Shown here piece after piece: positions 4,220-45,145 of a stretch of 64,000 bases of DNA. Source of the stretch: an uncultured Bryobacterales bacterium (GTDB lineage: Bacteria; Acidobacteriota; Terriglobia; Bryobacterales; UBA6623); NCBI GenBank assembly GCA_958295955.1, contig OY282420.1:3858435-3922434 (forward strand), given 5' to 3'. Below the pieces are notes generated by a model. It worked only from the letters and a program-made list of their open reading frames with translations. It was not told the origin of the DNA and searched no databases. The stretch's first letter is position 1; the number at the start of each line of letters is the position of its first letter. The translations under genes were made by a program, and so were the position numbers.

Positions 4220-7001
4220 CGCGGCGGCGGGGCTGTTCCCGGCGCCTGCCGCGCAAGAGGACTCGGGGCCGGTCGAATGCCTGGGTATGACCTTCGCATC
4301 CGACGAGGAGCGGCGGAAGCATTTTCTGCAGCGGCTGAAGGAAAAGCTGCCCGAGTTGCGGCAGCGGCCCGACTTCCCGACGGGCAACGACGAGGACATT
4401 CTGCGGCTGTCCGACCCGCCCTACTACACCGCTTGCCCCAACCCGTTCCTGGCCGAGTTCGTCGCGCATTACGGCAAACCCTACGACCCCGAAGAACCGT
4501 ACCGCCGCGAACCGTTCGCCGTCGATGTCAGCGAAGGCAAGACGGACCCGCTCTACAAGGCGCACGGCTACCACACCAAGGTTCCCCATCGGGCGATCGT
4601 GCCCTCCATCCTGCACTACACCGAGCCGGGCGACATCGTGCTGGACGGCTTCTGCGGTTCGGGCATGACCGGCGTGGCCGCGCAGTGGTGCGGCGCGGCG
4701 CCGGCGGCATACCGCCTGGAAATCGAGCGCCGCCGGCAGGAGGAAGGGCGCAAGGCGCCGCAGTGGGGCGCGCGCCGCGCGATCCTGGGCGACCTTTCGC
4801 CCGCCGCAACCTTCATCGCCGCCAACTACAACATCCCCTTCGACGCCGCCGCCTTCGCCGAAGCGGCCCGCAAGCTCCTCGACGACGTGGAGAACGAGAT
4901 CGGCTGGATGTACGAGACGCTGCACGCGGACGGGAAGACCAAAGGGCGGATCGACTACACCGTTTGGAGCGAGGTGTTTTCGTGCCCGGAGTGCGCGGGC
5001 GAGGTGGTGTTCATGCGGGAAGCCCTCGATAGAGCGAGCGGCGGCATCAGGGACGAGTTCCCCTGCCCGGAGTGCCGGGTGACCCTCGCCAAGCGGCGGC
5101 TGAACCGGCTGTATGTCTCCGAATACGACGCCGGCATCGGCAAGACCGTCAGAACCACGAAGCGGGTTCCGGTTTTCATCGTCTATACGGTAGAGGGAAC
5201 CCGGTATCGGAAGAATTTGGACGCCGGCGACCGCGAGGCGCTCCGCCGGATCGCAGCCCTGGACCGTCCTCCCGAACTGCCGTTGGACAGGATGATGCAT
5301 ACGCCGGAAGGCACGGACAACTGGGGAGATAAATACAGGCCGGGCGTTGCCGGGTTCTCGCACGTCCACCACCTGTTTCTTCCGCGGGCCGCGCATGCTT
5401 TGGCCGCGATGTGGCGTCGTGCGCAAGCCTGCCCCGACTCGCGAACCAAGAATGTTCTGTTGTTCTTCGTGGAACAAGCTATTTGGAACTTGGCCTTTTT
5501 GAACCGGTTTCGGCCAACCGGATACTCACAGGTCAATCAATACATGGCGGGCACTATCGCTGTTCTATCGCAGCATGCCGAATGCTCTCCGCATTACATA
5601 CTCAACGGCAAGCTCAAGCGGCTCGCCAAAGCTTTCGCGCCGCCGCCGGCGCAAGACGCGATGGCGGCTGTGACCATCGGCGATTGCGCCCGGATTGCGG
5701 CGCCCGACAACTCCATCGACTATGTGTTCACGGACCCGCCGTTCGGCCACAACTTGGCGTATGGCGAACTCAACTTCATCAACGAGGCTTTCCTGCGGGT
5801 CTTCACGAAGCTTGCCCCCGAAGCCATAGTCAGCCGCACGCAGCGGAAAGACCTTGGCGCGTACCAGCGACTGATGCAGCGGTGTTTCGAGAACTACTAC
5901 CGCGTCTTGAAACCCGGCCGTTGGATGACGATCGTCTTCCACAACTCCAAGAACGCGGTGTGGAACGCCATCCAGGAGGCATTGTTATCCGTGGGTTTCG
6001 TCGTTGCCGACGTCCGCATCCTGGACAAAAAATCGGGCACGTTCAATCAGGTGAATGCAGGCGGCGCGGTCAAGCAGGACCTGGTTATCTCCGCCTACAA
6101 GCCCAACGACGGGCTCGAGGAACGCTTCAAGCTGACCGCCGGAACGGAAGCCGGCGTCTGGGACTTCGTGCGCACGCACCTGCGGCAGCTTCCGGCGTTC
6201 GTGGTCAAAGAGGGCAAGGCCGAGGTCATTGCCGAGCGCCGCAACTACCTGCTCTTCGACCGCATGGTGGCCTTCCACGTGCAGCGCGGCGTGATGGTGC
6301 CCCTCTCCGCGGCGGAGTTTTACGAGGGGCTCGCGCAGCGCTTCTCCGAACGCGACGGCATGTTCTTCCTGACCGAGCAGGTTGCCGAGTACGACCGCAA
6401 GCGCATGAAGGCCAAAGAAGTGCTGCAACTGGAGATCTTCGTCAAAGACGAGGAGACGGCACTCCAGTGGCTGAAGCAGTCCCTGGCCAAGAAGCCGCAG
6501 ACCTTCCAGGAAATCCACCCGCAGTTCATCAAGGAGATCGGCGGCTGGCAGAAGCACGAGAAAACTCTGGAGCTTGCCCTGCTGCTGGAACAGAATTTCC
6601 TGTGCTACGACGGCGCGGGTGAAGTCCCCGGCCGGGTTCACAGCTACCTTTCGACCAACTTCAAGGAGTTGCGCAAACTGCCCAAGGACGATGCGGCGCT
6701 GCGGACCAAGGCCAAGAACCGCTGGTACGCGCCCGACCCGAGCAAGGCCGCCGACCTGGAGCGGCTGCGGGAGCGCGCTTTGCTGCGCGAGTTCGAGGAG
6801 TACCGCAAATCCGAGAAGAGGCGCCTGCGGGTGTTCCGCCTGGAAGCCGTCCGCGCCGGCTTCCGGCAGGCTTGGCGGGAGAGCGACTACGCCACGGTCA
6901 TCGCCGTAGCCCGCAAAATCCCCGAAACGATCCTGCAGGAAGACCCCAAGCTGCTGATGTGGTACGACCAGGCAATCACGCGAATGGAAAACAAGTTATG
7001 A
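4206..7001 (+). CDS. DNA methyltransferase (N4/N6 amino type, zinc-ribbon insert), PglX-position
   Basis: A 931-aa protein. The SAM-binding motif I (VLDGFCGSGMTG) is near residue 145 and the catalytic motif IV (FTDPPFGHN) near 510, so this is a DNA amino-methyltransferase with motif I first. Two CPEC pairs (~259 and ~286) form a probable zinc ribbon between them. The last ~250 residues are charged and helical and carry no known motif. The GTG at 4206 is chosen because GGAGGGAG sits just upstream; an earlier in-frame GTG at 4188 is possible. The gene overlaps the preceding gene by 14 bp and the next by ATGA. In BREX-like loci the methyltransferase marks self DNA and is needed for defence. The exact subfamily (DUF1156/PglXI-like) is inferred. 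Confidence 0.82.
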   Translation: MAKSDAAAGLFPAPAAQEDSGPVECLGMTFASDEERRKHFLQRLKEKLPELRQRPDFPTGNDEDILRLSDPPYYTACPNPFLAEFVAHYGKPYDPEEPYRREPFAVDVSEGKTDPLYKAHGYHTKVPHRAIVPSILHYTEPGDIVLDGFCGSGMTGVAAQWCGAAPAAYRLEIERRRQEEGRKAPQWGARRAILGDLSPAATFIAANYNIPFDAAAFAEAARKLLDDVENEIGWMYETLHADGKTKGRIDYTVWSEVFSCPECAGEVVFMREALDRASGGIRDEFPCPECRVTLAKRRLNRLYVSEYDAGIGKTVRTTKRVPVFIVYTVEGTRYRKNLDAGDREALRRIAALDRPPELPLDRMMHTPEGTDNWGDKYRPGVAGFSHVHHLFLPRAAHALAAMWRRAQACPDSRTKNVLLFFVEQAIWNLAFLNRFRPTGYSQVNQYMAGTIAVLSQHAECSPHYILNGKLKRLAKAFAPPPAQDAMAAVTIGDCARIAAPDNSIDYVFTDPPFGHNLAYGELNFINEAFLRVFTKLAPEAIVSRTQRKDLGAYQRLMQRCFENYYRVLKPGRWMTIVFHNSKNAVWNAIQEALLSVGFVVADVRILDKKSGTFNQVNAGGAVKQDLVISAYKPNDGLEERFKLTAGTEAGVWDFVRTHLRQLPAFVVKEGKAEVIAERRNYLLFDRMVAFHVQRGVMVPLSAAEFYEGLAQRFSERDGMFFLTEQVAEYDRKRMKAKEVLQLEIFVKDEETALQWLKQSLAKKPQTFQEIHPQFIKEIGGWQKHEKTLELALLLEQNFLCYDGAGEVPGRVHSYLSTNFKELRKLPKDDAALRTKAKNRWYAPDPSKAADLERLRERALLREFEEYRKSEKRRLRVFRLEAVRAGFRQAWRESDYATVIAVARKIPETILQEDPKLLMWYDQAITRMENKL

Positions 7002-32007: not shown

Positions 32008-32661
32008 TCATCTTTCAGCGGCCGAGCGGTCGTATGCTTCGAGCACATAGCGTCGGGTGCGGTATTCGCCGTATTTTTTCATCTCGCTGCTTTTGAGGCC
32101 GGGGAACGAGGCGCCCGGCGGGGGAGCGTCCAGGATGTACTCGAGGTCGGAGCGGTCCAGGCGGTACATGCGCGCGAAGATGGCGTCGAGCTCGCACTGC
32201 AAGCGATGTCGGCGATCCTCGTCCCAGGGGAAGGGCGGCCCCGCGTAGCCGAGGTCGGCGGCGAACCCCTCCAGGTCCGCGGCGGTGTAGGTCAATTCCA
32301 GGACGCGGGGCAAGACCAGCTCGGCGTACGGCAATCCGGGAGCCGCCTCTTCCAGATAAGCCTCCGGCGGCAGCACGGGCAACTGCTTGACGATGAAGAA
32401 GTTCATATTGACGCCGCCGACAGAGAAGCGGGCGGCCCAATCGAGCGGGAGGCTGTTCATGTTCGCCAGCACCAGCGCGGAAGCTACCGCCCGCGCCTGG
32501 GCATAGTCCACTACAGGGGCGCTGTTCCCTACGGCGCAACGGGGGATATTGCCCGTGAGAAAGGTGCGCTCGTTCGTGGCGTTGGTGATGCCCCGAAATA
32601 CCTGAAGCCATCGAGCGTAATCGATGGGCGGGAGAGGGGTCGCCGGATCGCCTTCGTGCAT
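32008..32661 (-). CDS. Detached C-terminal (target-recognition) module of an Eco57I-type methyltransferase
   Basis: A 217-aa frame with an ATG at 32661. The sequence YARWLQVFRGITNATNERTF, then NSAPVVDYAQA, LANMNSLPLDWAARFSVGG and NMNFFIVKQLPVLPPEAY matches the C-terminal recognition part of large Eco57I-like methyltransferases, but there is no SAM-binding or NPPY-type motif. It sits 340 bp beyond the last frame of the 33186-36731 methyltransferase, which lacks this module. It is either the displaced original C-terminus, an independently expressed specificity subunit, or a silent cassette. The MTase-type ending (RRYVLEAYDRS) is intact, which argues that it is under selection or recently separated. 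Confidence 0.75.
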   Translation of the reverse strand: MHEGDPATPLPPIDYARWLQVFRGITNATNERTFLTGNIPRCAVGNSAPVVDYAQARAVASALVLANMNSLPLDWAARFSVGGVNMNFFIVKQLPVLPPEAYLEEAAPGLPYAELVLPRVLELTYTAADLEGFAADLGYAGPPFPWDEDRRHRLQCELDAIFARMYRLDRSDLEYILDAPPPGASFPGLKSSEMKKYGEYRTRRYVLEAYDRSAAER

Positions 32662-32674
32662 GGAATCCCGATAC

Positions 32675-32688
32675 TATACCGTGGTATA
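32675..32688. promoter_or_regulatory. Palindromic operator/promoter candidate between divergent small genes
   Basis: TATACC-GT-GGTATA, two perfect 6-bp arms, lies 14 bases before the detached recognition-domain gene (minus) and 43 bases before the DUF1640 gene (plus). The minus strand also reads TATAGT here, which could be a -10 element. The position between divergent starts suits a repressor site. Confidence 0.4.
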
Positions 32689-32730
32689 AACAATAGGGCG
32701 TTGCGCAAGGACGCCGCCCTGAGGATCACA

Positions 32731-32982
32731 ATGGCAAGCGCGGCATTCAACACGCACGACGCGGTCAGGAAGTTGAGAGCGGCCGGAGCCGAGGAACCCC
32801 TGGCCGAGGCGGTAGTGGAAACCGTTGACGAAGCCGTCAGCGAGCTTGTGACCAAAAGCGATCTCAAAAACGAGGTCGACAAGTTGAAGGCAGAGTCCAA
32901 AGCCGAGCTCTATCGCGCATTGTGGATTCAAGGCATTGGCATTATCGGCGCTACAGTCGCTTTGATAAAGCTCTTGCCGTAA
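32731..32982 (+). CDS. Small DUF1640-like coiled-coil membrane protein
   Basis: An 83-aa protein beginning AAFNTHDAVRKLRAAGAEE. The middle is a charged coiled coil (VTKSDLKNEVDKLKAESKAEL) and the last ~20 residues are one membrane helix (WIQGIGIIGATVALIKLLP). This is the bacterial CCDC90/DUF1640 pattern. An RBS-like GAGGAT sits upstream of the ATG. It is the only plus-strand gene in this stretch and sits between two pieces of methyltransferase recognition domain, so it looks like cargo that split, or arrived after the splitting of, the larger gene. Function unknown. Confidence 0.75.
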   Translation: MASAAFNTHDAVRKLRAAGAEEPLAEAVVETVDEAVSELVTKSDLKNEVDKLKAESKAELYRALWIQGIGIIGATVALIKLLP

Positions 32983-33001
32983 GCAAAAGCCTTTTACGGG
33001 A

Positions 33002-33274
33002 TCACGGAGAGCGGCGGTTATCGGTGGAGCCGATGTGCAGGAGAGGGGCTTTGTTGCTCACTGCCGCTCCCCCCGGTAAGGCGGCGAAGACGGATGTTCG
33101 TTGGTTTGTGGGGCTTGCGATATCCCTGAAGACAAGGAGCCAACGACGATTGTCGTTCCCGAATCGCTCAGGCCGAAAGGCGGGATTATCGCGAAGACTC
33201 CCGTCCGCTCGTTGGTTGCGTTGGTGATCTTTCTGAGAGCGAGTTGCGGGCAAGCTTGGCGAGGATATCGAGAA
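33002..33274 (-). pseudogene. Out-of-frame recognition-domain remnants following the pentamer tract
   Basis: Beyond the repeat, the two frames not used by the current methyltransferase each encode a version of the conserved motif seen intact at 32008-32661 (VFRGITNATNERT). One frame, ending at 33058, reads LRKITNATNERTGVFAIIPP. The other, ending at 33002, reads WLLVFRDIASPTNQRTSVFAALP then NKAPLL. They start about 117 bp apart, so they are two successive remnants, not one motif read twice. Both stop well short of the full module. I treat the block as debris of the recognition domain that slippage in the tract could bring back into frame. Confidence 0.65.
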
Positions 33275-36200
33275 CCCGACCCGACCCGACCCGACCCGAC
33301 CCGACCCGACCCGACCCGACCCGACCCGACCCGACCCGACCCGACCCGACCCGACCCGACCCGACCCGACCCGACCCGACCCGACCCGACCCGACCCGAC
33401 CCGACCCGACCCGAGTATCAAGCACAACCGCCTCCCGTTTGTCAACTCTTTCGGCTACTTCATTCTCGGGCACCCAGTAGCGCGGGACGATAACCGCTTC
33501 GGGGTTCGCCTTCTCTTGCGCGGTCATCTGCCGGGCGTTTCCATTGCGGATGTCCTTGGCCGAGACGTCCTCGAAGGTGGCGAAGCGGTGGTCGTATTGG
33601 TGGAAGAGCTTGGCCTCGTACAGCGGCAGGTAGCGCTCTTTGCCGCGCGTGAACACGTTGCCCTGCAGGCGCCAACCCGCTTCCGCCAACTGCTCGCGCG
33701 TGCGGAACAGACCGGAGTCGTTGGCCATGTCGAACATCCGCTGGAACTTCGCGCCCCAGGGATTGGCCTCCGGTTCTTCGTCTTGCGCCTCCCGCCGGAA
33801 CACCCCGGCGCGGCGGTACATCTTGCGGGCGATCTCCATGTCCCGCCGGGTTCGGAAGATGGGGCAGGTGCGCGTGTTGGGATTGAACAGCCGGATGTCC
33901 TCGGCCGACAGCGCGAACCGCCGCCCGGCGTCGCGAAGCTGCTCCGGTGCGGTGCAGAAAAAAGCGAACTCGGGCGCGGGGCAGGGAAGCGCGGCGCCGG
34001 TCAGCGTCAGCAAACAGAACTTGATCCGGCTGTCAATGTCTGCAAAGACCTTCTCCCGGTTCTCGAAGTCGTACAGGCTGACCAGCCTCTGCCCGGCGAC
34101 CGTTTCGTCGAAGAATGCCTTGGTCGAATGGTCCGTGGCGATGCCGGTAGGCGCGATCAGTCCCGCGCGGCCTTTCGGCGACAGCAGCCGCAGGAACGTC
34201 TCGGCAAACACCGCGTAGGTGTTCACGTCGCCGACGCCGGTCAGAGGAAACCGCCCGCCGCCGCGGATGAACAGGCTTGACGCCTCGGCTTCTCGTCTCG
34301 CCGTTTCGAACTCGGCAAAGAGCGTCTTTTCCGCCGGCAGCGCGGCCTCAAGGGCCAAGCGCTCGATGAGCCGGTTGCGCGCCGCCTTGTTCGGGGCGGC
34401 GGCGATCTCCGGCGAGCGCGATGCGAAGAACTCCTGCTCCTGCAGCTTGACGCGCTCCCACGGCGGATTGCAGATTACGACGTCGAAGCCGCCGCGGCGC
34501 ATGACTTCGGCAAAGGCCGAGCGCCAGTGAAAGAAGCCGTGCCGCGCGGCCGATTCGCGGACCGCGGCCTCGACTCCCGGCCGCATGGTCAGCCCCTTGT
34601 CGAGGCGGTTGAGGTCTTCGCCGAGCGGCGCGGTCTCCAGCGCGTCTCTCGTCTTGCGGGCGAAAAACGCGCCGACGAAGAGGTCGGCGCGCAGCTTCTC
34701 TCTTGCGCGGGACTTGTCCCCGGTTTCCCAGGCGGCGCGCTTGCGGTCGACGTCGTCGATCGTCTCTTCGGACATGTCTTCCCAGTCGGCGGCCGGCGCG
34801 GCGGCTTGCGCCAAGCTGCCCGCGGCGAGCAGGCTGCCTTGCACGGAGCGGCCTGTTTGCCTGTTGCGCCGCTTGAGATCGCGGCAGACGATTTTGTCGT
34901 CGCCGGTGAGCGGCTTGTAGGCGGCGCCGGGAATGCCCTCGGCCATGACCGCCGGGTCGAGGACGCCGATCAGGCTGTCGCCGCAGCGGACGTGGGCGTC
35001 GAGGAACGACAGCGGCTTGCCCGGCTCGACCGTTTCGATCCAGAGCGCCGCCTTGCACAACGCGATCGCGAGCGGGTTGCGGTCGACGCCGTAGATGCAG
35101 CGCTGCGCGACCTCGCGCAACGCCTGACGGCGCGCGGCTTCGTCGTCGACGCCGGCTTCGAGGCGCGCGATCTCGGCGGCCATGCGCCGCGCCGCAGCCA
35201 GCAGGAAATGTCCCGAACCGCACGCCGGGTCGACGACCTTGAGCTCGAGCACGGCCGCCCGCGGGTCTTCGGGATGCTCGGCAACGGCCCGGGCGATCGC
35301 CGGGTCGAGCGCCGAGCGGATCAACTCATGCACCAGCGCGGGAGGGGTGTAATAGGAGCCGGTCAGTTTCCTCGCGGAGCCTTTGCCGTCGACGAGGTCG
35401 AACGTCCAGGGCGAGGCGTCCACGTCCAGCGCGGGCTGCAACTCCAGCAGGCTTTCGTAAACGGAGCCGAGCTCTTCGGTTCCCATGTCGCGGTAGTTGA
35501 CGCGGACGAGCGCCGCGCCGGAGGGGAAGAAGGCGAGGGCGCGCACGGCTTCCAGCAGATGCGCGTTGGCGATGGCTGCGCCGTCCAGGTCGGGGCACTG
35601 CTCGCGGCGGAACAGGCCGCCCAGGGCCGGCAGGCCGAGAGCGGGCGCGCCGCGGTCGAGAGCGGCGAAGGCAATGCGCAGGCTCTGCCAGAGGTCCCGG
35701 TGGCGGTCGTAGTGCCGCCGGCGCAGGGCGCGTTCGCGCAGGCGGGCCAGGGAGTAGCCTTGCGCGTACACGGCGCGCTGCGCTTCCGCGGCGTCCGGCG
35801 CATGCAGCAGGCCGCGCTCTTCGACGGTGAAGAGAAAAAGCAGGCGGTAAACCAGCCCGAGAAGCTGCCGGAACCAGTCTTCGGGCGTGAGCGCGCCGGA
35901 CCGCAGGGCGGCGCGCAGGCCGCTGTTGTCCGCGTGCTGCAGGAAGCCGTTGCCCAGGCTGCGCAAGGCATCGGCGACGCCGCTGCGGAGATTTTGCAGG
36001 GCGCGCTCGCCGGTTTTGTGGGCTTCGGCGCGCCAAGTCTCGAGGATGCAGCCGGAAGGCTTGCCGTCGGCCGGCTGCAGGCGTCCGGCATGGGCAACGA
36101 GCCAGAGCGCGGCGAAGTCGGGGTAGAGTTCTTCTTCGAAAATGAGATCGAGGTCGGCTTCGATGCAGGCGGGCCGCGTCAGGCTGGGGTTGTCGCGCAG

Positions 36201-36731
36201 GATGCGCAGCTTCGCTCCGTTGGAGACGATGCCCCACAGGCAGGCATCCGCGGCATTAAGGTACTCCTGCACGAGTCCGTGGGGGGCTTCCCGGCGGCCT
36301 TCCCAGCCGAAATGCGGGTCGGCCTTGTCGAGATCGAAGCCGCGCGCCGCCAGCAGCAGGGGCACGGCCCCGCCGCAGGCGCGGTGGGTCAGCTTGAAGA
36401 CGCGGTCCCGCTCGGCGGCGCTGCCGGCCGCGGTCAGATCGTCGTAGCCGAGGACGGAGCGCAGCAGCGGCTCGAGCCATTCTTTGACGCCCACCCGCCG
36501 CGCGTCGAGGTCTCGGCGGGCGCGGCGCAGGGCGTAGCGGGAGTAGAGATCGCCTGCGATGCGCCAATAGCGGGCGATCTCGTCCTTAAGCGCGAGCGAC
36601 TGCGAGAGGCCGTAGTCGGCGCCGTTCTGCCGCGGCGCTTTCAGCGCGGCGACGGTCCGCAGGAACTCGGGCGGCAGGATGCCGCCTGTGACCCGCAGCG
36701 CCGCGAACGCATGACTTTTTCGCGCCGCCAT
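33186..36731 (-). CDS. Eco57I-type adenine DNA methyltransferase with 3' phase-variable tract (DrmMI-like)
   Basis: A 1181-aa protein. Start ATG 36731 (MAARKSHAFAALRV) is chosen over the longer frame from 36791 because the extra residues lack coding character. An N-terminal helical region leads to TGSYYTPPALVHELI, then the SAM motif VVDPACGSGHFLLAA (~499) and the catalytic FDVVICNPPWERV (~755), a gamma-class N6-adenine methyltransferase. It continues to VPRYWVPENEVAERVDKRE, where intact relatives enter the FRDI recognition domain. Here the frame instead enters the 28-copy CCCGA tract and ends after a 29-aa nonsense tail, so the encoded enzyme lacks its recognition module. It is the third gene of a minus-strand set with two helicases. 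It is probably inactive in this frame. Confidence 0.88.
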   Translation of the reverse strand: MAARKSHAFAALRVTGGILPPEFLRTVAALKAPRQNGADYGLSQSLALKDEIARYWRIAGDLYSRYALRRARRDLDARRVGVKEWLEPLLRSVLGYDDLTAAGSAAERDRVFKLTHRACGGAVPLLLAARGFDLDKADPHFGWEGRREAPHGLVQEYLNAADACLWGIVSNGAKLRILRDNPSLTRPACIEADLDLIFEEELYPDFAALWLVAHAGRLQPADGKPSGCILETWRAEAHKTGERALQNLRSGVADALRSLGNGFLQHADNSGLRAALRSGALTPEDWFRQLLGLVYRLLFLFTVEERGLLHAPDAAEAQRAVYAQGYSLARLRERALRRRHYDRHRDLWQSLRIAFAALDRGAPALGLPALGGLFRREQCPDLDGAAIANAHLLEAVRALAFFPSGAALVRVNYRDMGTEELGSVYESLLELQPALDVDASPWTFDLVDGKGSARKLTGSYYTPPALVHELIRSALDPAIARAVAEHPEDPRAAVLELKVVDPACGSGHFLLAAARRMAAEIARLEAGVDDEAARRQALREVAQRCIYGVDRNPLAIALCKAALWIETVEPGKPLSFLDAHVRCGDSLIGVLDPAVMAEGIPGAAYKPLTGDDKIVCRDLKRRNRQTGRSVQGSLLAAGSLAQAAAPAADWEDMSEETIDDVDRKRAAWETGDKSRAREKLRADLFVGAFFARKTRDALETAPLGEDLNRLDKGLTMRPGVEAAVRESAARHGFFHWRSAFAEVMRRGGFDVVICNPPWERVKLQEQEFFASRSPEIAAAPNKAARNRLIERLALEAALPAEKTLFAEFETARREAEASSLFIRGGGRFPLTGVGDVNTYAVFAETFLRLLSPKGRAGLIAPTGIATDHSTKAFFDETVAGQRLVSLYDFENREKVFADIDSRIKFCLLTLTGAALPCPAPEFAFFCTAPEQLRDAGRRFALSAEDIRLFNPNTRTCPIFRTRRDMEIARKMYRRAGVFRREAQDEEPEANPWGAKFQRMFDMANDSGLFRTREQLAEAGWRLQGNVFTRGKERYLPLYEAKLFHQYDHRFATFEDVSAKDIRNGNARQMTAQEKANPEAVIVPRYWVPENEVAERVDKREAVVLDTRVGSGRVGSGRVGSGRVGSGRVGSGRVGSGRVGSGRVGSGRVGSGRVLDILAKLARNSLSERSPTQPTSGRESSR
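33275..33414. repeat. Pentanucleotide tract, exactly 28 copies of CCCGA
   Basis: An uninterrupted run of 140 bp, 28 perfect CCCGA units (TCGGG in the sense of the gene). Three units encode VGSGR, so the current frame contains a VGSGR repeat in the methyltransferase. Because 5 is not a multiple of 3, loss or gain of a unit changes the downstream frame. Perfect long tracts of this type are contingency loci in phase-variable methyltransferases. Confidence 0.98.
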
Positions 36732-36950
36732 TACAGATATGGTAGGCGCAAGCGCGCCAAGCGCCCGAAACGCGGCGGCGCATGTCTGCAAGGCCGACGC
36801 CGGAGAGCGTTATAACGAGGGCCGGCCGGTTGCCCCCGAGGGGTGATGCGCGGCCCCGGAGGCCGGCTATATGCAAGAATACGCCTGAAGAAGACGCGCA
36901 GAGCTTGGGAACGTCTGTTGCCGGCGCGCGCAGCGGCTGAGGCGCCCGCC

Positions 36951-39854
36951 TCACAAGTTCGCCAGGGGCATGAAGACGTAAACCCCGATCTTGTCCACCG
37001 GCAGCGCCGGCGTCACCGCGTAGCGCAGGCCGCGGGCGCCGCTTGCCTCGCGGATGCGCCGGTGGTCGGAGAGCAGTTCCCGGGCGCGCCGGCGGGCGAT
37101 GTCGGAGAACGCCTCTTCCAGGTCGGGCAGCGCGGCGAGAGCCTGCCGGATCAGCATGCTTTTTTGCCCGTCTTCCATGTTGCGGCCGGGTTCGAGCGCG
37201 AGCAGCGCAAGGGCGTCGCCGTCGGCCGGCAGCTCGGGCGCGGCGCCGGCGCGGACGACGACAGCGAGGCATTCTTCGGCCAACAACGCTTTCGCCGGCG
37301 CGGGACGGCCGTCCGCGCCGCGCCGCTCGACCTCGATCTGACTGCGCAGGCGCAGCAGGTAGAGCACGGTGCGGGTTTCGACCCCCGCGGTGAAGACCGC
37401 GCCCGCCCGGGCGGCGATTTGCGGGTTGCCGGCGTCGAGCGCCTGTTCCGCCGCATAGTCCGCAAGGGCGGCGACCAGCGGATGCGCGCGGTGGATGTAT
37501 GCCGCTCCCTGCGGCGCGGGTTGGGCGAAGGCGAGCTTTGCCGAAGATGAGAAGCCGATGCCGTCGAGGCGGTCCTGGAGCGCCCCGGGCAGGTGCTTGA
37601 CCGGCAGGCGGCAATACCCGTTGCGCCGGTCGAGCGGCGCCCCCAGGCGTTGGGCGGCCGAGCGGACGAAACGGGCGACGTCGTCCGGCCCGCCGAGCAC
37701 GGCAACGGCCTTGCGCCATTCCGGGAGAACGTCGTCCGGCCGCAGCCGCCGCTGGGCGAAGATCGTGCGCGTCCGCGTCATCCTGTCGCGCGCGTTCCGC
37801 CAAGCCTCGTCCACTTCGTCTTCGACGTCCCCGAAATCGAGCTTGCGCTGCTCGACCGCTTCGGCTATGCCGCCGCTGCGCAGCAGAACCGCCTTCATAA
37901 CGGCGTCCACGACCTTGTTGCCGTCGGCCGGCAGGGGCACGGCCACGCCCAACTCCTTGCGGATCTTGGATGCCTTGCGCAGGATCACCTGGAGCACGGC
38001 GCCGTCCACGGGGTTGTTTTCGCCGTAGAGCATCAGCGCGCGCACCGCGGGCGACGCCTGCCCGAAACGATCGGCGCGGCCCTCGCGCTGCTCGTGGCGG
38101 GTCGGGTTCCAGGTGAGATCGTAATGGATCACCGCATCGAACCGGCTTTGCAGGTTGATGCCTTCGGACAGGCAGTCCGTGGCCGCTAGCACCGGCGCCG
38201 CGCCGGATTCGAGATCGTCCAATTCCTCGATGCGCTCTTCGCGCTGGTCGGAGGTCAACTCTCCGGTAACGACGGCGACGCGGGTTTTCTGCTGCGGCAA
38301 GGCGCGCTGCAACTCCTCGCCGACGTAGTGGGCGGTGGCGACGTAGCGGCAGAACACGACCGGCTTGAAGCCGTCCGCGAGCAGCCGCCGCGTCTCGACG
38401 ATCAGCAACTTCAGCTTGGGGTCGTTGGCCGGGCCGCGCAGGGCGTCGGCGCGGGCGATCAGCCGGCGCAGCGCCGGGGCGTCCTCCGGCGTTTCCAGGG
38501 CGCCGGCGGGCGCGCTTTCGTTGCGCGTCAGGGAGTCGTCGTCCGCTTCGTCCATGACCGTTTCGCCGGCCGCCCGGTCGAGGTCGGCGATTTGCTCTCG
38601 CTCGCTCTCTCCTGCCGCGGCTTGCAGCCGCGTGCGCAGGGCCAGCGAAGCCGCGGCGGGGCTGGAGGAGACGCAGCGCAGCAGCGCCAGCGCCGCCCAC
38701 CAGGACATGCGCTGCTGCAGCTTGCTGCCGCCTTCGGCACGCTCGACCATGGCGCGGGCATAGGCCAGCGCGTCGTCGAAAAGCCGCCCCCAATCGCCGG
38801 TCAAGCGGTAGGTGGCTTCGCGGCTCTCGCGGACGGGGAAGCCGGCGGCGTCCTTCCACTCGGCGATGTCGCCGCGCCGGCGCTGGATGAAGCGTCCGGC
38901 GAGCTTTTCGCGCAGCTTGCCGCGCGCCTCGCCTTCGGGCATTGCGGCAAGCTGCGCGAATTCGGGCGCCAGCAGGCCCAGCAGGTTGTGAAAAGCGGCG
39001 TCGTCGCCGGAATGCGGCGTGGCCGTGAGGAATACCATGTGCCGCCGGGGCTCGCCCGCGGCGAGGCCCCGGAGCAGACGGTAGCGTTGATGGCGGGCGG
39101 CGGTATCGGCCCGCACGCAGGCATGGGCCTCGTCCACAACGACGAAATGCGGGCAGGCGCGCAGGAAATCTTCCCGGCGGCGGTCGGATTTGATGTAGTC
39201 CAGGGAGACGACCGTATAGGGATGGACTTCGAAAATGGATTCATCCGGCCGCAGTCCCCGTTCGAGACGCGCGGCCGTGCCGGTGCGGACGACCTCGGCC
39301 TCGATGCTGAATTTCTCCGCCAGCTCCTGCTGCCACTGCTCGCAGAGATGCGGCGGACAGAGGACGGCGAGCCGCTCGACCTCGCCGCGGTCGATCAACT
39401 CGCGGGCGATCAGGCCGGCTTCGATGGTCTTGCCGATGCCCACGTCGTCGGCGATCAGCAGGCGGACGGTGTCCAGCTTGAGCGCCATGAGCAGCGGCGC
39501 CAGTTGATAGGCGCGGGGCTCGACGTTGAGGTTGCCGAAGCTTCTGAAGGGGCCGGCGCCGGCGCGCAGCTTCAGGCGCAGCGCGTCGCGCAGGAGGAGC
39601 GCCGCTTCCCGCGAGCCCGGCTTTTCGGGGTCCGGCAGGTCGAACGTTGCCGCCGCGGGCTGCTCGGTCTCCAGCGGCAGATAGATCAGCGAGGCATCGT
39701 CCTCGGCCCCGCCGAGCGGCCGCAGCTTCAGCAGGTCGGGCCGCGTCTCGGGCAGAACGACCCATTCACGCCCCCGCGCCCGCACCAGATCGCCGGGCTT
39801 GAACCGAACCGCCGCTTCCATTGCGCGCTCTTTGCCCCGCTCCTCCGCTTTCAT
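36951..39854 (-). CDS. SNF2-like superfamily 2 helicase (DrmD/BrxHII-like)
   Basis: A 967-aa protein. Start ATG 39854 overlaps the stop of the giant helicase (ATGA); a second ATG at 39821 (MEAAVRFKPGDLV) is also plausible. Motifs: Walker A LIADDVGIGKTIEAGL (~139), DEAH box VVDEAHACV (~236), motif III FLTATPHSGDD (~275), and the second RecA lobe with LSEGINLQSRFDAVIHYDL then EQREGRADRFGQ (~560-592). The C-terminal ~300 residues are specific and end in a QEV-like region. This layout fits the SNF2 helicases of DISARM (DrmD) and BREX-3/4 (BrxHII). It probably translocates on DNA for the neighbouring methyltransferase and helicase-nuclease. Confidence 0.85.
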   Translation of the reverse strand: MKAEERGKERAMEAAVRFKPGDLVRARGREWVVLPETRPDLLKLRPLGGAEDDASLIYLPLETEQPAAATFDLPDPEKPGSREAALLLRDALRLKLRAGAGPFRSFGNLNVEPRAYQLAPLLMALKLDTVRLLIADDVGIGKTIEAGLIARELIDRGEVERLAVLCPPHLCEQWQQELAEKFSIEAEVVRTGTAARLERGLRPDESIFEVHPYTVVSLDYIKSDRRREDFLRACPHFVVVDEAHACVRADTAARHQRYRLLRGLAAGEPRRHMVFLTATPHSGDDAAFHNLLGLLAPEFAQLAAMPEGEARGKLREKLAGRFIQRRRGDIAEWKDAAGFPVRESREATYRLTGDWGRLFDDALAYARAMVERAEGGSKLQQRMSWWAALALLRCVSSSPAAASLALRTRLQAAAGESEREQIADLDRAAGETVMDEADDDSLTRNESAPAGALETPEDAPALRRLIARADALRGPANDPKLKLLIVETRRLLADGFKPVVFCRYVATAHYVGEELQRALPQQKTRVAVVTGELTSDQREERIEELDDLESGAAPVLAATDCLSEGINLQSRFDAVIHYDLTWNPTRHEQREGRADRFGQASPAVRALMLYGENNPVDGAVLQVILRKASKIRKELGVAVPLPADGNKVVDAVMKAVLLRSGGIAEAVEQRKLDFGDVEDEVDEAWRNARDRMTRTRTIFAQRRLRPDDVLPEWRKAVAVLGGPDDVARFVRSAAQRLGAPLDRRNGYCRLPVKHLPGALQDRLDGIGFSSSAKLAFAQPAPQGAAYIHRAHPLVAALADYAAEQALDAGNPQIAARAGAVFTAGVETRTVLYLLRLRSQIEVERRGADGRPAPAKALLAEECLAVVVRAGAAPELPADGDALALLALEPGRNMEDGQKSMLIRQALAALPDLEEAFSDIARRRARELLSDHRRIREASGARGLRYAVTPALPVDKIGVYVFMPLANL

Positions 39855-42800
39855 TCGGCAGCCGGCGCTTTGCCCTTGCCGAAGACCCAGGCGTACTCGT
39901 CCGCGATGCGCCCCCAGGACGCCCGCTCCGCGGGAAAGCGCACGACGGTGAAGCCCGCATCGCGAAGGCGCCGCGTGATCTCGGCGTCGAGGGCTTTTTG
40001 GCTGCTTCCCCGGTGGACGGGGCCGTCGATGTAGATCAAGGCTTGCCGCTCGGCGTAGGCAAAGTCGGGTCGGGTATGGAATTTCTCGAGGTAGGGCTGC
40101 GCCCGGTCCGGCAGGCGGCGGCCGCTCGTTTTCAGATAGTCGAGCCACGCCTTTTCGAGGCTGGAATGCGAGGCGTTGCGCATATCGTCGAAGCTTTCGC
40201 CCAGCGGGGAGGCGCAAGTCTTGCGTTCGCTGCGCGCCAGCCGGCAGAGCAGATCGAGCATGTCTTCGTTGCGGCGGTCGATTCGTTCGTGGTCCGGCTG
40301 GTTGTAGTAGCTGAGCAGGCAGCGGTAGCAGCCGGCCTCGCAGTCTTTCTCCCGATTTTCGAGGCCGGCGGCATCGAGCGGGCCGCCGGATTGCGAGGCG
40401 TAGTGGCAGACTTCCAGCGCCTTGCGGGCGACCTGCCTTATCGCTTCGGGATCGCTTGCCAGACGGGTGAGGACGCCGGCGCCGCCTTCGGCCGCCTCGT
40501 AGAAAAGGACGGCGGCGCGCTTGTCCCGCTCGGGCAGGGGCTCGGCGGCAAGCTCCGCCTCTTCCAATTGGAACTCCTGCTCGATGCCGCGTTTGAGTGC
40601 GTACTGCAGCGAGATCATGGCCTCGTCAGAAAGCTGGGCGCCCGGCCTGACGACCAGGATGTTGCGGGTGTCCTCGACGAAGGGCGTAATGCGCTCGATC
40701 TTTTTTCCCATCTGCGCAGCAGTTTTTCCGGCCTGCGCAGCAGTTTTTCCGGTCTGCGCGCCGTCGTCTTCCGCGTCGGTCGGCGCTTGGTCGTCTTTGG
40801 TCCATTCGCCGGTATGGGCATCGATGCTGAAGCCGTAGATGGACTTCTCTCGGCGCCGCCGCCAGCCGAGGTTGATGCGCCAGAGCGTAGCGGCCGGGCC
40901 GTATTCGAACTTGAGGAGAGTTTCTCCTTTTTCCTGCAACTCGGCGCGCTCGACGCGCGGCCTGCCGTTCTCCTCGGCGAAGCGCAGCGTGGTGATCGTC
41001 TCGTAACCTTGACGCTGCCGCTCTTCTTCGTCGGAGGTGATGCGCATGGCCCGCCGGGTCGAGACTTGCTCGATGCGGTAGAGGTTGGAGACGATGCGGC
41101 TGTCCGCGAGGGAGGCGGCGCAGTTGACGCAGCGTTCGAAACTCTTGCGCTCTCCGAAATGTCCGTAACCGCAGGCGGGACAGATGCGGGCGGCTTGCAC
41201 CGGCAGCCCGGCCGAAGCGGCTGCCTCTCCCTCGCCGCGGATGGCGAGCAGGGCGCGCCGCACGCGGTAAGTGCTGCCCTCGTGGTAGATGATGGATTGC
41301 GGGCCGAACTCGCTGAGCCCGAGAAAGCGGGGGCGGCTCAAGAACGAGTCGCGAACCAGTCTCTCGCGCCGCCCGGGGATGAAGGCCATAAGCGGCAGGC
41401 GGGGGAAGTTGTAGCCCGGCAAGAAGCCCTCCGCCGCGAGATAGCGGTAGGTATGGAAGTCCGAGTTCATCGTCGCTTTGCTTTCGAGCAGCAGATTCTG
41501 CTGAGTATAGGCTTCGTCGTAGCGGGACTTGGCCTCTTGGCGTTCGCGTTCGGTCGCCGCGGCGTTGTGCAGCACCGCGTTGGCGGATTGCATCTGGCGC
41601 GACGTAGCGAGGTAAAGAGAGCGCCAGCGGCGAAAGGCTCCATCGAACCGCAGCTCCGCGGAGTTCACCGCGCTGTCGAGCCACCTTTCCGTGTACCAGG
41701 GGGCGGCCGGCCCGGAGAGGTCTTGCTCGAGTGTGGCCAGGATGCGCCGCGCGCGCCTTTTCGTTGCGTCCACGGCTTTGGCCCCGCGGATATCCTCGGC
41801 GAGTTTTTGGCGCAAGGGCAACTCGACGGGGTTTTCCAGATCGAGCGCTTCGCGCACTGATTTGCCCGGCGAAGCTTCCGTTTCCACCAGCCAGACTGCG
41901 TGCAGGTGGCTGCGTACGAGGTCTTCGTTGGCCAAGTCGATGGACGGCGCATTGACGGCGCCGGCGACCATGCGCGCCGGCTCTGAGAAAAAGTACTGGT
42001 CGTGGGGCGAGCGGGCCGCGCAGTAGGTAATGACCAATGCCGGTTGACCGCTGCGGCCGGCGCGTCCGCTGCGCTGCGCGTAATTGGCCGGCGTGGGCGG
42101 CGCGTTGCGCATGTAAACCGCGTTGAGCGTGGAGATGTCGATGCCGAGTTCCATGGTCGGCGAGCAGAAAAGGATGGGCAAGCCTGCCGGCTCCACCCGG
42201 TCGTCCACGATGCGCTCGTCTTCGAGGCCCTTGCGGAAACGCATTTCGCGTTCTTCGCGGACCCCGGCCTCGACCTGCGCCGTATGTTCCCGCGCTTCCA
42301 GGCGGTGCAGGAAATGTTCGCCGCCATCCAGGAGCTTTGCGGCATTGTCGTAGAGGGCGCGGAAGAACCGGTTGGCGGCGTCGGCGCCCGCGGCGAGACG
42401 CCATTCCAGAACGGAACTGTCGATGCGGTAACCGACTTGCCGCCCGCCGCGGCCGCCGTTCGGGTCTGTCGGCTCCACATAGCCGTAAACGGTCAGCACG
42501 CTCAAGATGCCGTCGACGAGGGCGTTGTAATCCTGCTCGCCGAACTGCTGCGGCCGGCGCGAGGCTGCGGCGCCCGCCAGGGCTTGCGAGCGGAGTTTCC
42601 GTCCGAAGGCGGAGCGGTGGGAGACGTGAACCAGGCGGGAGTCCTTGCCGCCGATTTTTGAGGCGGGACGCGGGACCATGACGGCGTGCGGTTCGAGGCG
42701 GTCTTCTTCCGACAGTCCCCAGGGTTCTTTCAACTCGTTGAAGCTGCGGTTGCGGATCTGCTCCTGGAAGCTCGGGTCGAGGTAGATGGTCTTGATGCAG

Positions 42801-45145
42801 AGCGCCTTGCGCATGCGGTCGAGCAGAGCGCGGGCGATAGCGAAGCGCTGCTCCGGGGTCATGGCGCCGAGCAGCGGGTGCGCCTTGCGCCATTCCACCT
42901 CGTCTTGGCAGCAAGCCTCGAGCTCCCGGTAGCGGATATCCAGGAGGTTGAGTTGCTCCAGGTTGGGGTTGGCGATGCGCCAGCCGCGCTGCAGATCGAA
43001 ATAGAGCCGGTAGCCCAGAACGTCGCGCAGGGTCTTGAGGGTATTGCGCGCCTTGAGGCCCTTGGCCTCGGGGTTGGCGGCGTAATCCGCCGGGGTCAGG
43101 CGCAGGCGGTCGAGTACGCGCTGGGTCAGCACGTCGTCGGTCAAGCCGCGCTTCGGGTTTTGTCGAACGGCGGCGAGCAGCGCGCCCCGCAGCAGCAGAA
43201 TCTGGATGAAGTCGTTGAAGTGCCCGGCCTGGAGGCTGGCGTCCTGCCGGTTGTCGGTAAAGGCGAGCAGCTTCTTGGTTTTCTCATTGAGGTCGGCGCC
43301 GATCAGGTGCTTCAGGGCGGACAGCGCCAGCACGGTCGTGGCCGAGCTGCGGCCCTCGCTCGACAGGCCGGAGAGCTTGCTCAGATCGCTGCGCCTACCC
43401 TCGTAATGGACGGCGCAATCCGGGTTGAGGCAGAAGCGGAACGATCCGGGAACGAACCACGCGGGCAGCCCTTCGCCGGCGGCCTTGCCCCGGGTATCCA
43501 CCTGGACCTCGATGGGGCTGTAGCGCTTATAGTGGGGCTTGAGGCGCGGCGCGCCGTTGCGCAACTCCAGCCAGTTCTCCGGGTAGTGGCGCTCCAATTG
43601 CGCCGGGACGAATGCCGCCGCGTTGTCGGGCAGCAGATAGCCGTGGCGCAACTCCTCATCTTCGTTGGAGCGTTCGGCAAGATCGCGCGGGCTGAACTTG
43701 CGCGGCCTTCCGCCCTCGATTTCCGCCCACACCGGGAAATATTCCTGGCCGCACTCCCGGCAGAAAGCGAGATTGAATAGGCGCCGGTCGCGGCGCCCCG
43801 GTTGGAGTTGCTGCCCGTGCAGCGTGACGAAGCGTTTTCCGGGCGCCTCCAGGGTGGAGTAGGCGTTCCAGGCGCCGCTGATGAACTGGTGGAGGCGGAA
43901 GGCGAAGAACTCGCGGCGGCTCTCGTTCCTGCTGTTCCAGGCGGCAAGCAGGAAGTCCGCGAGGTAGCGGCGGCAATCCTCGCTCTGCAGGCCGCTTTTC
44001 TTGGCGAGCCTTGCCGCGGCTTCCTTGACCGTCAGCGGCCGCGAGATGCGGGCGAGCTTGCCGTCTCGTTTTTCCAGACCGAGATTCCATTCCACCCAGG
44101 CGGCAATGGGGTGTCTTGTCAGTTCGGCGTGGGTCGGCTCCGCCGGAACGCCCGCCTCGATGGCGCGGCGCAGTTCGGCGCGGCTGCCGAGCGCGCCGCG
44201 GGTAACGCGCTCAAGGGTTTCGGTGACGACGTTGGCGGGCTTGACGGCGGCGCCGAAAAGCCGGCCGGCAACGGCCGCGACAGCCGCGTTGCGCTCGCCG
44301 GCCGATCCTTCCGAGGCCATGGTGGCGGAGGTGCCGATGCAGAGCAGATTCTCGTTGAACCGTTCCCGCACGCGCCGCACCAGCATGGCCACGTCGGCGC
44401 CCTGCCGCCCGCGGTAGGTGTGCAACTCGTCCAGAACCAGAAAGCGGAGCCCCGCCGCATGCTTGCGCACGGTCTTATCGTTTTCCAGGAAGCGCGTCAG
44501 GATCAACTCGAGCATGACGTAGTTCGTCAGCAATATGTCGGGGGGATTTTTGGCGATCCGTTCCCGCTCATCGTTCGACTCCTGTCCGGTATAGCGGGCA
44601 AAGGTCACCGGTTCGTTGCCCTTGCCGTAGCCGCAAACCAGAAACTTCTCCAATTCCTCCAGTTGGCTGTTGCACAGGGCGTTCATCGGATAGACGACGA
44701 TGGCGGAGATGCCCCGGCCGGCATCGCCGGATTTCTTTCTGCGCAGCACGTCGTCGACGATGGGGATGAAGTAGCTGAGCGACTTGCCGGAGCCCGTGCC
44801 GGTGGTCAGCACGTAGCTCTCGCCCCGTTTGGCGATGGCGATAGCTTCGGTCTGGTGGCGGTGTAGAACGAGGGGCTCGCCGCCCGCGCCGCGGCCGGCC
44901 GGTTTCTTGAGCCGGAAGATATTGGCGCATTCGGCGTCGAGGACGCCTTGGGCTGCGAGCTCGTCGATAGAGCCGCCCTTGACGAAATTGGGGTTCAACT
45001 GAATCAGCGGGTCGGGGCAGAAGCGGCCGCCGCGGTAGGCGTCGTCGACGGTCCGGCGGATGTCTTCCGCGCGGATTTTGACGAAGCTTCGCGAGAAGCG
45101 CTCGTAGTCCTCGACGATCTGATTACGGAAAGCGAAAACGTCCAT
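39851..45145 (-). CDS. Giant DEAD/DEAH helicase fused to DUF1998 and a C-terminal nuclease-like domain (DrmA-DrmB-like)
   Basis: A 1764-aa protein. An N-terminal SF2 helicase has Walker A TTGTGSGKSLSYFIP (~114), LDELHTYRGRQG (~237), SATMAS (~273) and motif VI QRSGRAGRSG (~1023). A CREC zinc-like pair lies at ~470. After motif VI come RICPACGYG…CVNCA (~1322) and a DUF1998 core with the Cys cluster KDCEAGCYRCLLSYYN (~1598). The last ~100 residues (SLEKAWLDYL, RPDFAYAERQALIYIDGPVH, ITRRLRDAGF) resemble a DUF559/Vsr-type endonuclease. In DISARM, helicase (DrmA), DUF1998 (DrmB) and nuclease (DrmC) are separate proteins; here all three functions appear in one chain. It heads the operon. In-frame 21-bp repeats sit at ~1463-1481. 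Confidence 0.83.
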   Translation of the reverse strand: MDVFAFRNQIVEDYERFSRSFVKIRAEDIRRTVDDAYRGGRFCPDPLIQLNPNFVKGGSIDELAAQGVLDAECANIFRLKKPAGRGAGGEPLVLHRHQTEAIAIAKRGESYVLTTGTGSGKSLSYFIPIVDDVLRRKKSGDAGRGISAIVVYPMNALCNSQLEELEKFLVCGYGKGNEPVTFARYTGQESNDERERIAKNPPDILLTNYVMLELILTRFLENDKTVRKHAAGLRFLVLDELHTYRGRQGADVAMLVRRVRERFNENLLCIGTSATMASEGSAGERNAAVAAVAGRLFGAAVKPANVVTETLERVTRGALGSRAELRRAIEAGVPAEPTHAELTRHPIAAWVEWNLGLEKRDGKLARISRPLTVKEAAARLAKKSGLQSEDCRRYLADFLLAAWNSRNESRREFFAFRLHQFISGAWNAYSTLEAPGKRFVTLHGQQLQPGRRDRRLFNLAFCRECGQEYFPVWAEIEGGRPRKFSPRDLAERSNEDEELRHGYLLPDNAAAFVPAQLERHYPENWLELRNGAPRLKPHYKRYSPIEVQVDTRGKAAGEGLPAWFVPGSFRFCLNPDCAVHYEGRRSDLSKLSGLSSEGRSSATTVLALSALKHLIGADLNEKTKKLLAFTDNRQDASLQAGHFNDFIQILLLRGALLAAVRQNPKRGLTDDVLTQRVLDRLRLTPADYAANPEAKGLKARNTLKTLRDVLGYRLYFDLQRGWRIANPNLEQLNLLDIRYRELEACCQDEVEWRKAHPLLGAMTPEQRFAIARALLDRMRKALCIKTIYLDPSFQEQIRNRSFNELKEPWGLSEEDRLEPHAVMVPRPASKIGGKDSRLVHVSHRSAFGRKLRSQALAGAAASRRPQQFGEQDYNALVDGILSVLTVYGYVEPTDPNGGRGGRQVGYRIDSSVLEWRLAAGADAANRFFRALYDNAAKLLDGGEHFLHRLEAREHTAQVEAGVREEREMRFRKGLEDERIVDDRVEPAGLPILFCSPTMELGIDISTLNAVYMRNAPPTPANYAQRSGRAGRSGQPALVITYCAARSPHDQYFFSEPARMVAGAVNAPSIDLANEDLVRSHLHAVWLVETEASPGKSVREALDLENPVELPLRQKLAEDIRGAKAVDATKRRARRILATLEQDLSGPAAPWYTERWLDSAVNSAELRFDGAFRRWRSLYLATSRQMQSANAVLHNAAATERERQEAKSRYDEAYTQQNLLLESKATMNSDFHTYRYLAAEGFLPGYNFPRLPLMAFIPGRRERLVRDSFLSRPRFLGLSEFGPQSIIYHEGSTYRVRRALLAIRGEGEAAASAGLPVQAARICPACGYGHFGERKSFERCVNCAASLADSRIVSNLYRIEQVSTRRAMRITSDEEERQRQGYETITTLRFAEENGRPRVERAELQEKGETLLKFEYGPAATLWRINLGWRRRREKSIYGFSIDAHTGEWTKDDQAPTDAEDDGAQTGKTAAQAGKTAAQMGKKIERITPFVEDTRNILVVRPGAQLSDEAMISLQYALKRGIEQEFQLEEAELAAEPLPERDKRAAVLFYEAAEGGAGVLTRLASDPEAIRQVARKALEVCHYASQSGGPLDAAGLENREKDCEAGCYRCLLSYYNQPDHERIDRRNEDMLDLLCRLARSERKTCASPLGESFDDMRNASHSSLEKAWLDYLKTSGRRLPDRAQPYLEKFHTRPDFAYAERQALIYIDGPVHRGSSQKALDAEITRRLRDAGFTVVRFPAERASWGRIADEYAWVFGKGKAPAAE
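40702..40759. repeat. Dispersed 21-bp repeat inside the giant helicase gene (2.7 copies)
   Basis: Units at 40702-40722 and 40723-40743 plus a partial third to 40759 (TTTTTCC-GGCCTGCGCAGCAG), with slight variation in the first. In the gene they encode AAQAGKT repeats in a linker between the DUF1998 part and the helicase C-terminal segment. The same unit occurs in non-coding DNA at 26142-26183. A 21-bp length keeps the frame, so insertion here is tolerated. Confidence 0.85.

Follow-up and report, generated by a model that had tools for sequence, protein, structure and literature searches.

Most of the phase-variable methyltransferases known so far come from host-adapted pathogens, in which homopolymers or short repeats turn a gene on or off; the Campylobacter jejuni type IIG enzyme and Streptomyces pglX are methyltransferases that are switched on and off via homopolymer tracts. 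Phase-variable pglX of Streptomyces belongs to the same broad fold class as the enzyme treated here. In C-terminal phase variation, as described in Helicobacter canadensis (PMC2823697) and Neisseria gonorrhoeae (PMC5320596), a repeat lies late in the gene and its slippage yields three C-termini; the tracts listed there are homopolymers, and the tails consist mostly of a few residues or a fusion. In the NgoAV type I system, slippage of a poly-G tract in hsdS1 results either in a truncated specificity subunit or in a fusion with the next ORF, and methylation specificity is altered (PMC9577141). The type IIG enzyme of C. jejuni is phase-variable as well (PMC4889913).

The locus described here was found in a window of 64,000 nucleotides (the whole stretch of DNA that was analyzed) from an uncultured Bryobacterales bacterium. 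It shares with C-terminal phase variation a late repeat, three C-termini and the fusion of some frames to downstream coding sequence, but differs from it in that the repeat stands mid-gene, is followed by selected paralogous copies of one element with a stop-restart overlap, and occurs in many phyla with varied units. As in NgoAV (PMC9577141), slippage would set a truncated against a fused form, here, judging from sequence, in a predicted methyltransferase, whereas NgoAV concerns a type I HsdS subunit of one host genus, with a homopolymer and no frame-shifted paralogous modules described. The C. jejuni type IIG enzyme and the methyltransferase have in common repeat-driven switching, a large adenine methyltransferase and the broad fold class. 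Similarities to BREX PglX/BrxX and DISARM DrmMI comprise the fold, the best PADLOC match (DrmMI) and an adjoining DrmD-like helicase; unlike the BREX families, the protein scores far under the curated cut-offs, and no repeat-selected modules of the target-recognition (TRD) part are described in the literature that we found. C-terminal phase variation and poly-G-dependent fused or truncated HsdS were already known, while for the module layout and the locus we found no description: a search of openly accessible journal papers for frame-shifted paralogous modules behind a repeat, or for this locus (sponge symbionts, DISARM, BREX), returned nothing.

Taken as a whole, the data are best explained by a three-way reading-frame selector in a putatively defence-linked adenine methyltransferase, a reading to which we assign a probability of roughly 0.6. 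Its most detailed version, in which slippage would pick a one-chain, two-chain or truncated form, with TRD-element copies arranged in successive -1 frames and joined stop to start, in a device that would have spread across phyla (perhaps to an archaeon) with its unit freely replaced, stands at about even odds.

The repeat tract and the methyltransferase frame

The (CCCGA)28 tract lies at 33275..33414 on the minus strand, where the coding strand reads (TCGGG)28 and is translated as repeated VGSGR. Both TRF and exact matching returned 28 perfect units (100% matches, no indels), and together with Pfam they bore out the claim of an earlier note that a perfect tract is embedded in the frame of an adenine methyltransferase. 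Within the 4.58-Mb genome the tract is unique, with 25 overlapping 20-mer matches, all inside it, and none for the backward control. A repeat census over 862 kb, made up of the window and 798 kb of sampled sequence from this genome, detected just one other long short-unit repeat, (CTGACGA)17, so the tract is not a product of chance.

The surrounding ORF (36791..33186, minus strand; 1201 aa) contains a catalytic part, the first TRD part and the tract and, with 28 units, ends in a 29-aa tail. Pfam assigned it the Eco57I (E=3.9e-16; 60.1 bits versus a cut-off of 25.3) and N6_Mtase (3.4e-9) domains with no nuclease family reported among its matches, and the DPACGSG and NPPW motifs are visible, in keeping with an Eco57I or type IIG-like adenine methyltransferase; the fold is BrxX-like, going by the model of homologue L062. 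Its best PADLOC family was DrmMI (5e-67), while the best NCBIfam BREX methyltransferase score, 53.6 bits against a cut-off of 400, places it outside the BREX PglX family.

A perfect short tandem repeat inside an ORF, with a unit that is not a multiple of three, has the structure of a simple-sequence contingency locus, and a repeat behind a complete upstream part with three frames leading to three C-termini, as seen in the window and its relatives, has that of C-terminal phase variation. Re-translation with 0-31 units confirmed the frame arithmetic proposed before: 28 units give the 29-residue tail, 29 units a tail with VFRDIASPTNQRT and 27 units a tail with LRKITNATNERT. The proposal of a contingency locus at the specificity part of the enzyme held in one respect, since homologues carry other out-of-frame units at the same site and the repeats of close relatives differ in unit and number, but the 27- and 29-unit tails are not whole specificity domains. 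Both proved to be short copies of one TRD element. Nor does the tract seem to mark the border between the catalytic part and the TRD, as had been suggested; in the model of the intact relative L062 it falls inside the TRD, between parts at residues about 520-645 and 739-830, the limits being our own reading of that model. The true end of the TRD is encoded outside the region considered in the earlier note, in a separate ORF (32661..32008, minus strand) severed by a 409-bp insert. Also missed in that note were the paralogous modules of the alternative frames, which appear to be under selection and to share a stop-restart overlap.

Just upstream of the tract (window 33420-33470, minus strand), the stretch AGACTTGACA has nearly constant nucleotides in homologues from GC-rich genomes of several phyla. 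It resembles a -35 box, and a promoter was considered from few sequences; a -10 box was not consistent.

Repeats and frame-shifted modules among homologues

When the last third of the catalytic part was used to query 84,980 genomes, 80 homologues were obtained, 24 of which have a simple repeat at the same site, directly behind a PRYWVPExEVxxRLDK motif. The units are AGCCG, AGGC, ACCG, GCACA, GCAGCCCG, CGTCAAC, ACAG, CGAC, AGCC, GACC, AGAC (31.5 copies), ATCGG (24 copies), AGAGCAGC (18.6 copies), CCGAG, poly-C and poly-G, that is, 1, 4, 5, 7 or 8 nt long; where the L061 and L065 contigs end, the C or G runs of 43 to 51 bases resemble assembly noise. Four loci found later carry (AG)17 or, in three cases, AGGC/GGCA (2 or 4 nt), and in none of the 28 repeat loci of relatives is the unit a multiple of three. 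By record title, the hosts belong to Acidobacteriota, Gemmatimonadota, Alpha- and Gammaproteobacteria, Actinomycetota, Verrucomicrobiota, Planctomycetota, Chloroflexota, Bacteroidota, Rhodothermota and Latescibacterota and include a Thorarchaeota bin, about a dozen phyla, one of them represented by an archaeal bin; many are presumably sponge symbionts, judging from their isolate codes. Two distant relatives come from viral contigs.

Mapped on a tree of the catalytic part, repeats cluster strongly, with 22 rows in one clade (SH-aLRT 99), and L073/L076 and L080 lie outside it, which implies at least three changes; the mixture of phyla in the tree suggests horizontal transfer. Units can differ even between close relatives, as four loci (L054, L208, L066 and L056) that are 93-94% identical over ~700 nt upstream carry AGGC, AGGC, AGCC and ACCG, respectively, in differing numbers. 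Of the 24 repeat loci, nine sit on contigs that break off at the tract, and in three others it contains runs of N, a pattern that fits a variable tract, if not necessarily one that varies within a population; a switching tract would explain these assembly breaks.

The tract is followed by two or three copies of a module of ~35 aa, W-L-x-x-F-R-x-I-x-x-A-T-N-E-R-T-x-I-x-x-x-I-P-x-x-x-V-S-N-K-A-P-L. Frame-shifted modules were found in all 15 readable repeat loci, and a motif search detected no frame-shifted second module near the junction in the 56 homologues without a repeat; for some of these the search did not pick up even the one module, and two (L093, L115) end at the junction. Two layouts can be distinguished. 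In class I (window, L041, L054-L056, L062, L066, L068, L069, L141, L142, L145, L156, L207-L209, with L067 and L071 similar), module 1 lies in frame A, and modules 2 and 3 are fused in frame B. In class II (L063, L072, L073, L076, L080), modules lie in successive frames, the last one leading into the TRD. Modules 1 and 2 are spaced by 107 or 113 nt, both 2 mod 3 and hence one frame back, in every readable locus except L055; the spacing from module 2 to module 3 is 120 nt in class I (123 in L145) and 113 in L072. In L055 (about 6057-6163) the first spacing is 106 rather than 107 nt and the frame-A stop is destroyed, probably through a one-base indel or an assembly error.

The modules are conserved as protein, each in its own frame. 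For module 1, dN/dS was 0.26 overall in its own frame versus 1.1-1.5 in the other two, with codon-position differences of 79/47/124, while the linker just upstream (32/33/27) was neutral in all frames and the tail of module 1 was conserved in the frame of module 2 only. Modules 1 and 2 of class II gave 0.17 and 0.14, and the range across tests was 0.14-0.33. By the codon-position tests and dN/dS, even those frames that stop short of the TRD appear to be translated and to be under selection. The codon-position test also led us to reject an unselected tandem duplication.

The first residue of the VSNKAPL motif is encoded by a start codon in 14 of 14 class I loci (GTG for Val, otherwise ATG or TTG); Val at this position is always GTG, although GTG makes up 54 of 200 Val codons across these ORFs. 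The next base is A in all 14, so that the resulting NTGA holds the frame-A stop, and in most class I loci the first stop of frame A falls exactly there, the exceptions being L067, L069, L071 and L142, which stop before the overlap, and the frame-shifted L055. The loci found later (L202, L207, L208, L209) have GTGA again, and in L073, L076 and L080 of class II an ATGA spans the frame-B stop, at the homologous residue (MSDRAPL). Frames A and B overlap by ~70 nt, and the constant -1 offset would be explained by the fact that an NTGA overlap always passes to the -1 frame. Shine-Dalgarno (SD)-like tetramers were present 4-14 nt upstream of the restart codon in 7 of 14 loci and absent from the homologous sites in module 3 (0/11) and module 1 (0/21).

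One bin (G276) contains two repeat-and-module cassettes, with the units CAGG (L156) and AGCC (L066). Relatives with a single module (L013, L018, L091, L098, L106, L107, L110, L117, L124, L129, L130) have in-frame extra segments of about 280-440 nt at the same junction.

Frame choice and competing explanations

In our preferred reading, that of the three-way selector, slippage of the tract would change the frame in which ribosomes enter the downstream part. One frame (B in class I, C in class II) would give a single fused enzyme; the preceding frame would end in its own module at NTGA, where translation would resume and produce a second chain from the TRD half, yielding a split enzyme; the third frame would give a truncated protein. 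Consequently, cells of one clone would differ in methylation specificity or activity, and in the linked defence system. In the window, the 28 units are in the truncated frame, and the insert has severed the fused frame, so that the TRD half stands as a separate ORF. We regard frame switching by slippage as very probable and the selected use of more than one frame as likely, and we lean slightly toward a split enzyme made by stop and restart.

Among 15 loci with an uninterrupted tract, the fused frame was found in L062 only, the stop-restart frame in four class I loci (L066, L069, L071, L202) and three of class II (L072, L073, L076), and the truncated frame in the window, L055, L056, L067, L208 and, in frame A of class II, L080, with L075 in frame A of an unusual layout. 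One fused frame in 15 is fewer than the expected third (binomial p about 0.02), a deficit on which we do not lean. Nearly half of the uninterrupted tracts are therefore in the stop-restart frame and the alternative frames are selected, with about a dozen unrelated units at one site in about a dozen phyla, so that one may ask if frame choice yields different enzymes, and does not just decide whether an enzyme is there, and by what means the members of a microbial community maintain variability in a defence system. Several facts speak against the selector: NTGA could be kept merely as a stop, the SD-like match occurs in just half of the loci and four class I loci stop earlier, the fused frame is rare, and the window gene cannot reach the full protein via slippage alone.

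The alternative that fares best, though we consider it rather unlikely, is plain ON/OFF phase variation, the usual form in phase-variable methyltransferases, with the fused frame alone active, the other frames giving an inactive truncated protein, and modules 1 and 2 being leftovers of an old duplication. The predicted structures are in its favor. The AF2 model of the fused L062 protein has a mean pLDDT of 86.8, with module 3 forming ordered strands and the tract and module 2 disordered, and its fold is that of BrxX (9ewz; Z 23.9, 519 residues aligned, rmsd 5.9), CamA (8cxs; Z 24.2) and MmeI, whereas in the frame-A product (L066; shallow alignment) module 1 was not folded and the first TRD part was less confident. 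This model gives no support for docking of module 1 onto the rest, a point that also weighs against the split form; in that form, if the module were interrupted ahead of its third strand (before APL), the two chains would part within a loop. However, leftovers would not account for purifying selection on module 1, and on module 2 in class II, in frames that never reach the remainder of the TRD, nor for a -1 offset and an NTGA site maintained across phyla.

Selection on module 1 in frame A, and the differences between module sequences, could also mean that truncated proteins ending in module 1 or 2 act on another DNA target, like the truncated HsdS of NgoAV, without any restart. This is improbable, given that such products would lack the second TRD half and the C-terminal helices, that AF2 gave no ordered placement of module 1, and that the conserved start codon and SD-like sequence would be left unexplained. 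Still less credible is programmed -1 ribosomal frameshifting that would join the frames within their overlap: it agrees with the constant -1 offset and the ~70-nt overlap of frames A and B, but no slippery heptamer was noticed by eye, and the start-codon bias at the stop would have no explanation. Finally, a neutral microsatellite in a decaying gene, or an assembly artefact, could be imagined from the interrupted window gene with its tract in the truncated frame and from the many contigs of relatives that break at the tract, but it is the least probable of all, since the position is shared with differing units across many phyla, also in records whose titles call them chromosomes (L069, L072, L080), and the modules and the TRD half are still under purifying selection.

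The severed gene in the window and its neighbors

In the window, module 1 (LRKITNATNERTGVFAIIPPFGLSDSGTT...; frame A, 27 units) lies at 33058..33249 on the minus strand and is of the type selected in its own frame among relatives. It ends at a TGA that overlaps the restart GTG of frame B, forming a GTGA at 33058..33061 (minus strand), upstream of which is a Shine-Dalgarno-like purine run, GGGGGGAG. Module 2 (WLLVFRDIASPTNQRTSVFAALPGGAAVSNKAPLL...; frame B, 29 units; 33002..33142, minus strand) runs into the 409-bp insert (32640..33048) and then stops. The insert, flanked by an 18-bp imperfect direct repeat (16/18; 32622..32639 and 33031..33048), interrupts frame B between modules 2 and 3; upon its removal in silico, the flanks join, the in-frame AVSNKAPLPPIDYARWLQVFRGITNATNERT is restored and modules 2 and 3 fuse. 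Because the insert severs the fused frame, the whole protein cannot be reached in the window by unit number alone. Inside the insert is an 83-aa ORF (32731..32982, plus strand) with a weak CCDC90-like match under the Pfam cut-off. A multicopy mobile element was ruled out, as the genome holds no second copy besides a 64-nt piece at 77%.

The detached ORF (32008..32661, minus strand), whose start ATG comes from the insert, comprises module 3, the second TRD half and the C-terminal helices and matches, by homology, the final ~200 residues of intact relatives. Its dN/dS against L041 was 0.20, a value that a recent insertion might by itself explain. Pfam, NCBIfam and PADLOC gave no matches for this TRD half or the 29-unit tail, and phmmer against PDB sequences gave a single chance match only. 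In two other family members both gene halves are on different contigs. The C-half contig L041 (G241) begins inside the repeat, after which come module 1 in one frame and then, in a second frame, modules 2 and 3 and the remainder of the TRD.

Two helicase genes lie upstream of the methyltransferase in the same direction. The partner gene (36951..40217, minus strand) encodes an SNF2-type, DpdE/DrmD-like helicase; among relatives whose sequence extends far enough upstream, most have such a gene next to the methyltransferase. The second (39851..45145, minus strand), a DruE-like DEAD helicase with an MZB zinc-binding domain, also has counterparts near L069, L083, L104, L108 and L109. Compared with DISARM, the locus has a DrmMI-like methyltransferase and a DrmD-like helicase (322.9 bits versus an NCBIfam cut-off of 610), and the DruE-like helicase stands in place of separate DrmA/DrmB; the scan for DrmC covered part of the window ORFs.

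The genome encodes a second methyltransferase homologue (G000:C1:2085347-2087620; loci L036, L040), an uninterrupted protein of 1373 aa without a repeat and without extra modules. Elsewhere in it, the (CTGACGA) repeat (16.9 copies; G000:C1 about 1875295; locus L190, 15295-15412) lies out of frame close to the 5' end of an ORF for a large NHL-repeat protein and is a candidate second contingency locus, and a degenerate 12-bp tandem repeat, GACCAAGTTGGA, is present in about 20 copies at window 3617-3878. In another genome (G157), the methyltransferase homologue L022 stops after three TATTGCGAG units (around 1250-1450, coding strand minus), and the next ORF has, by eye, the look of an excisionase-type antitoxin; the junction region there seems to be an insertion hotspot.
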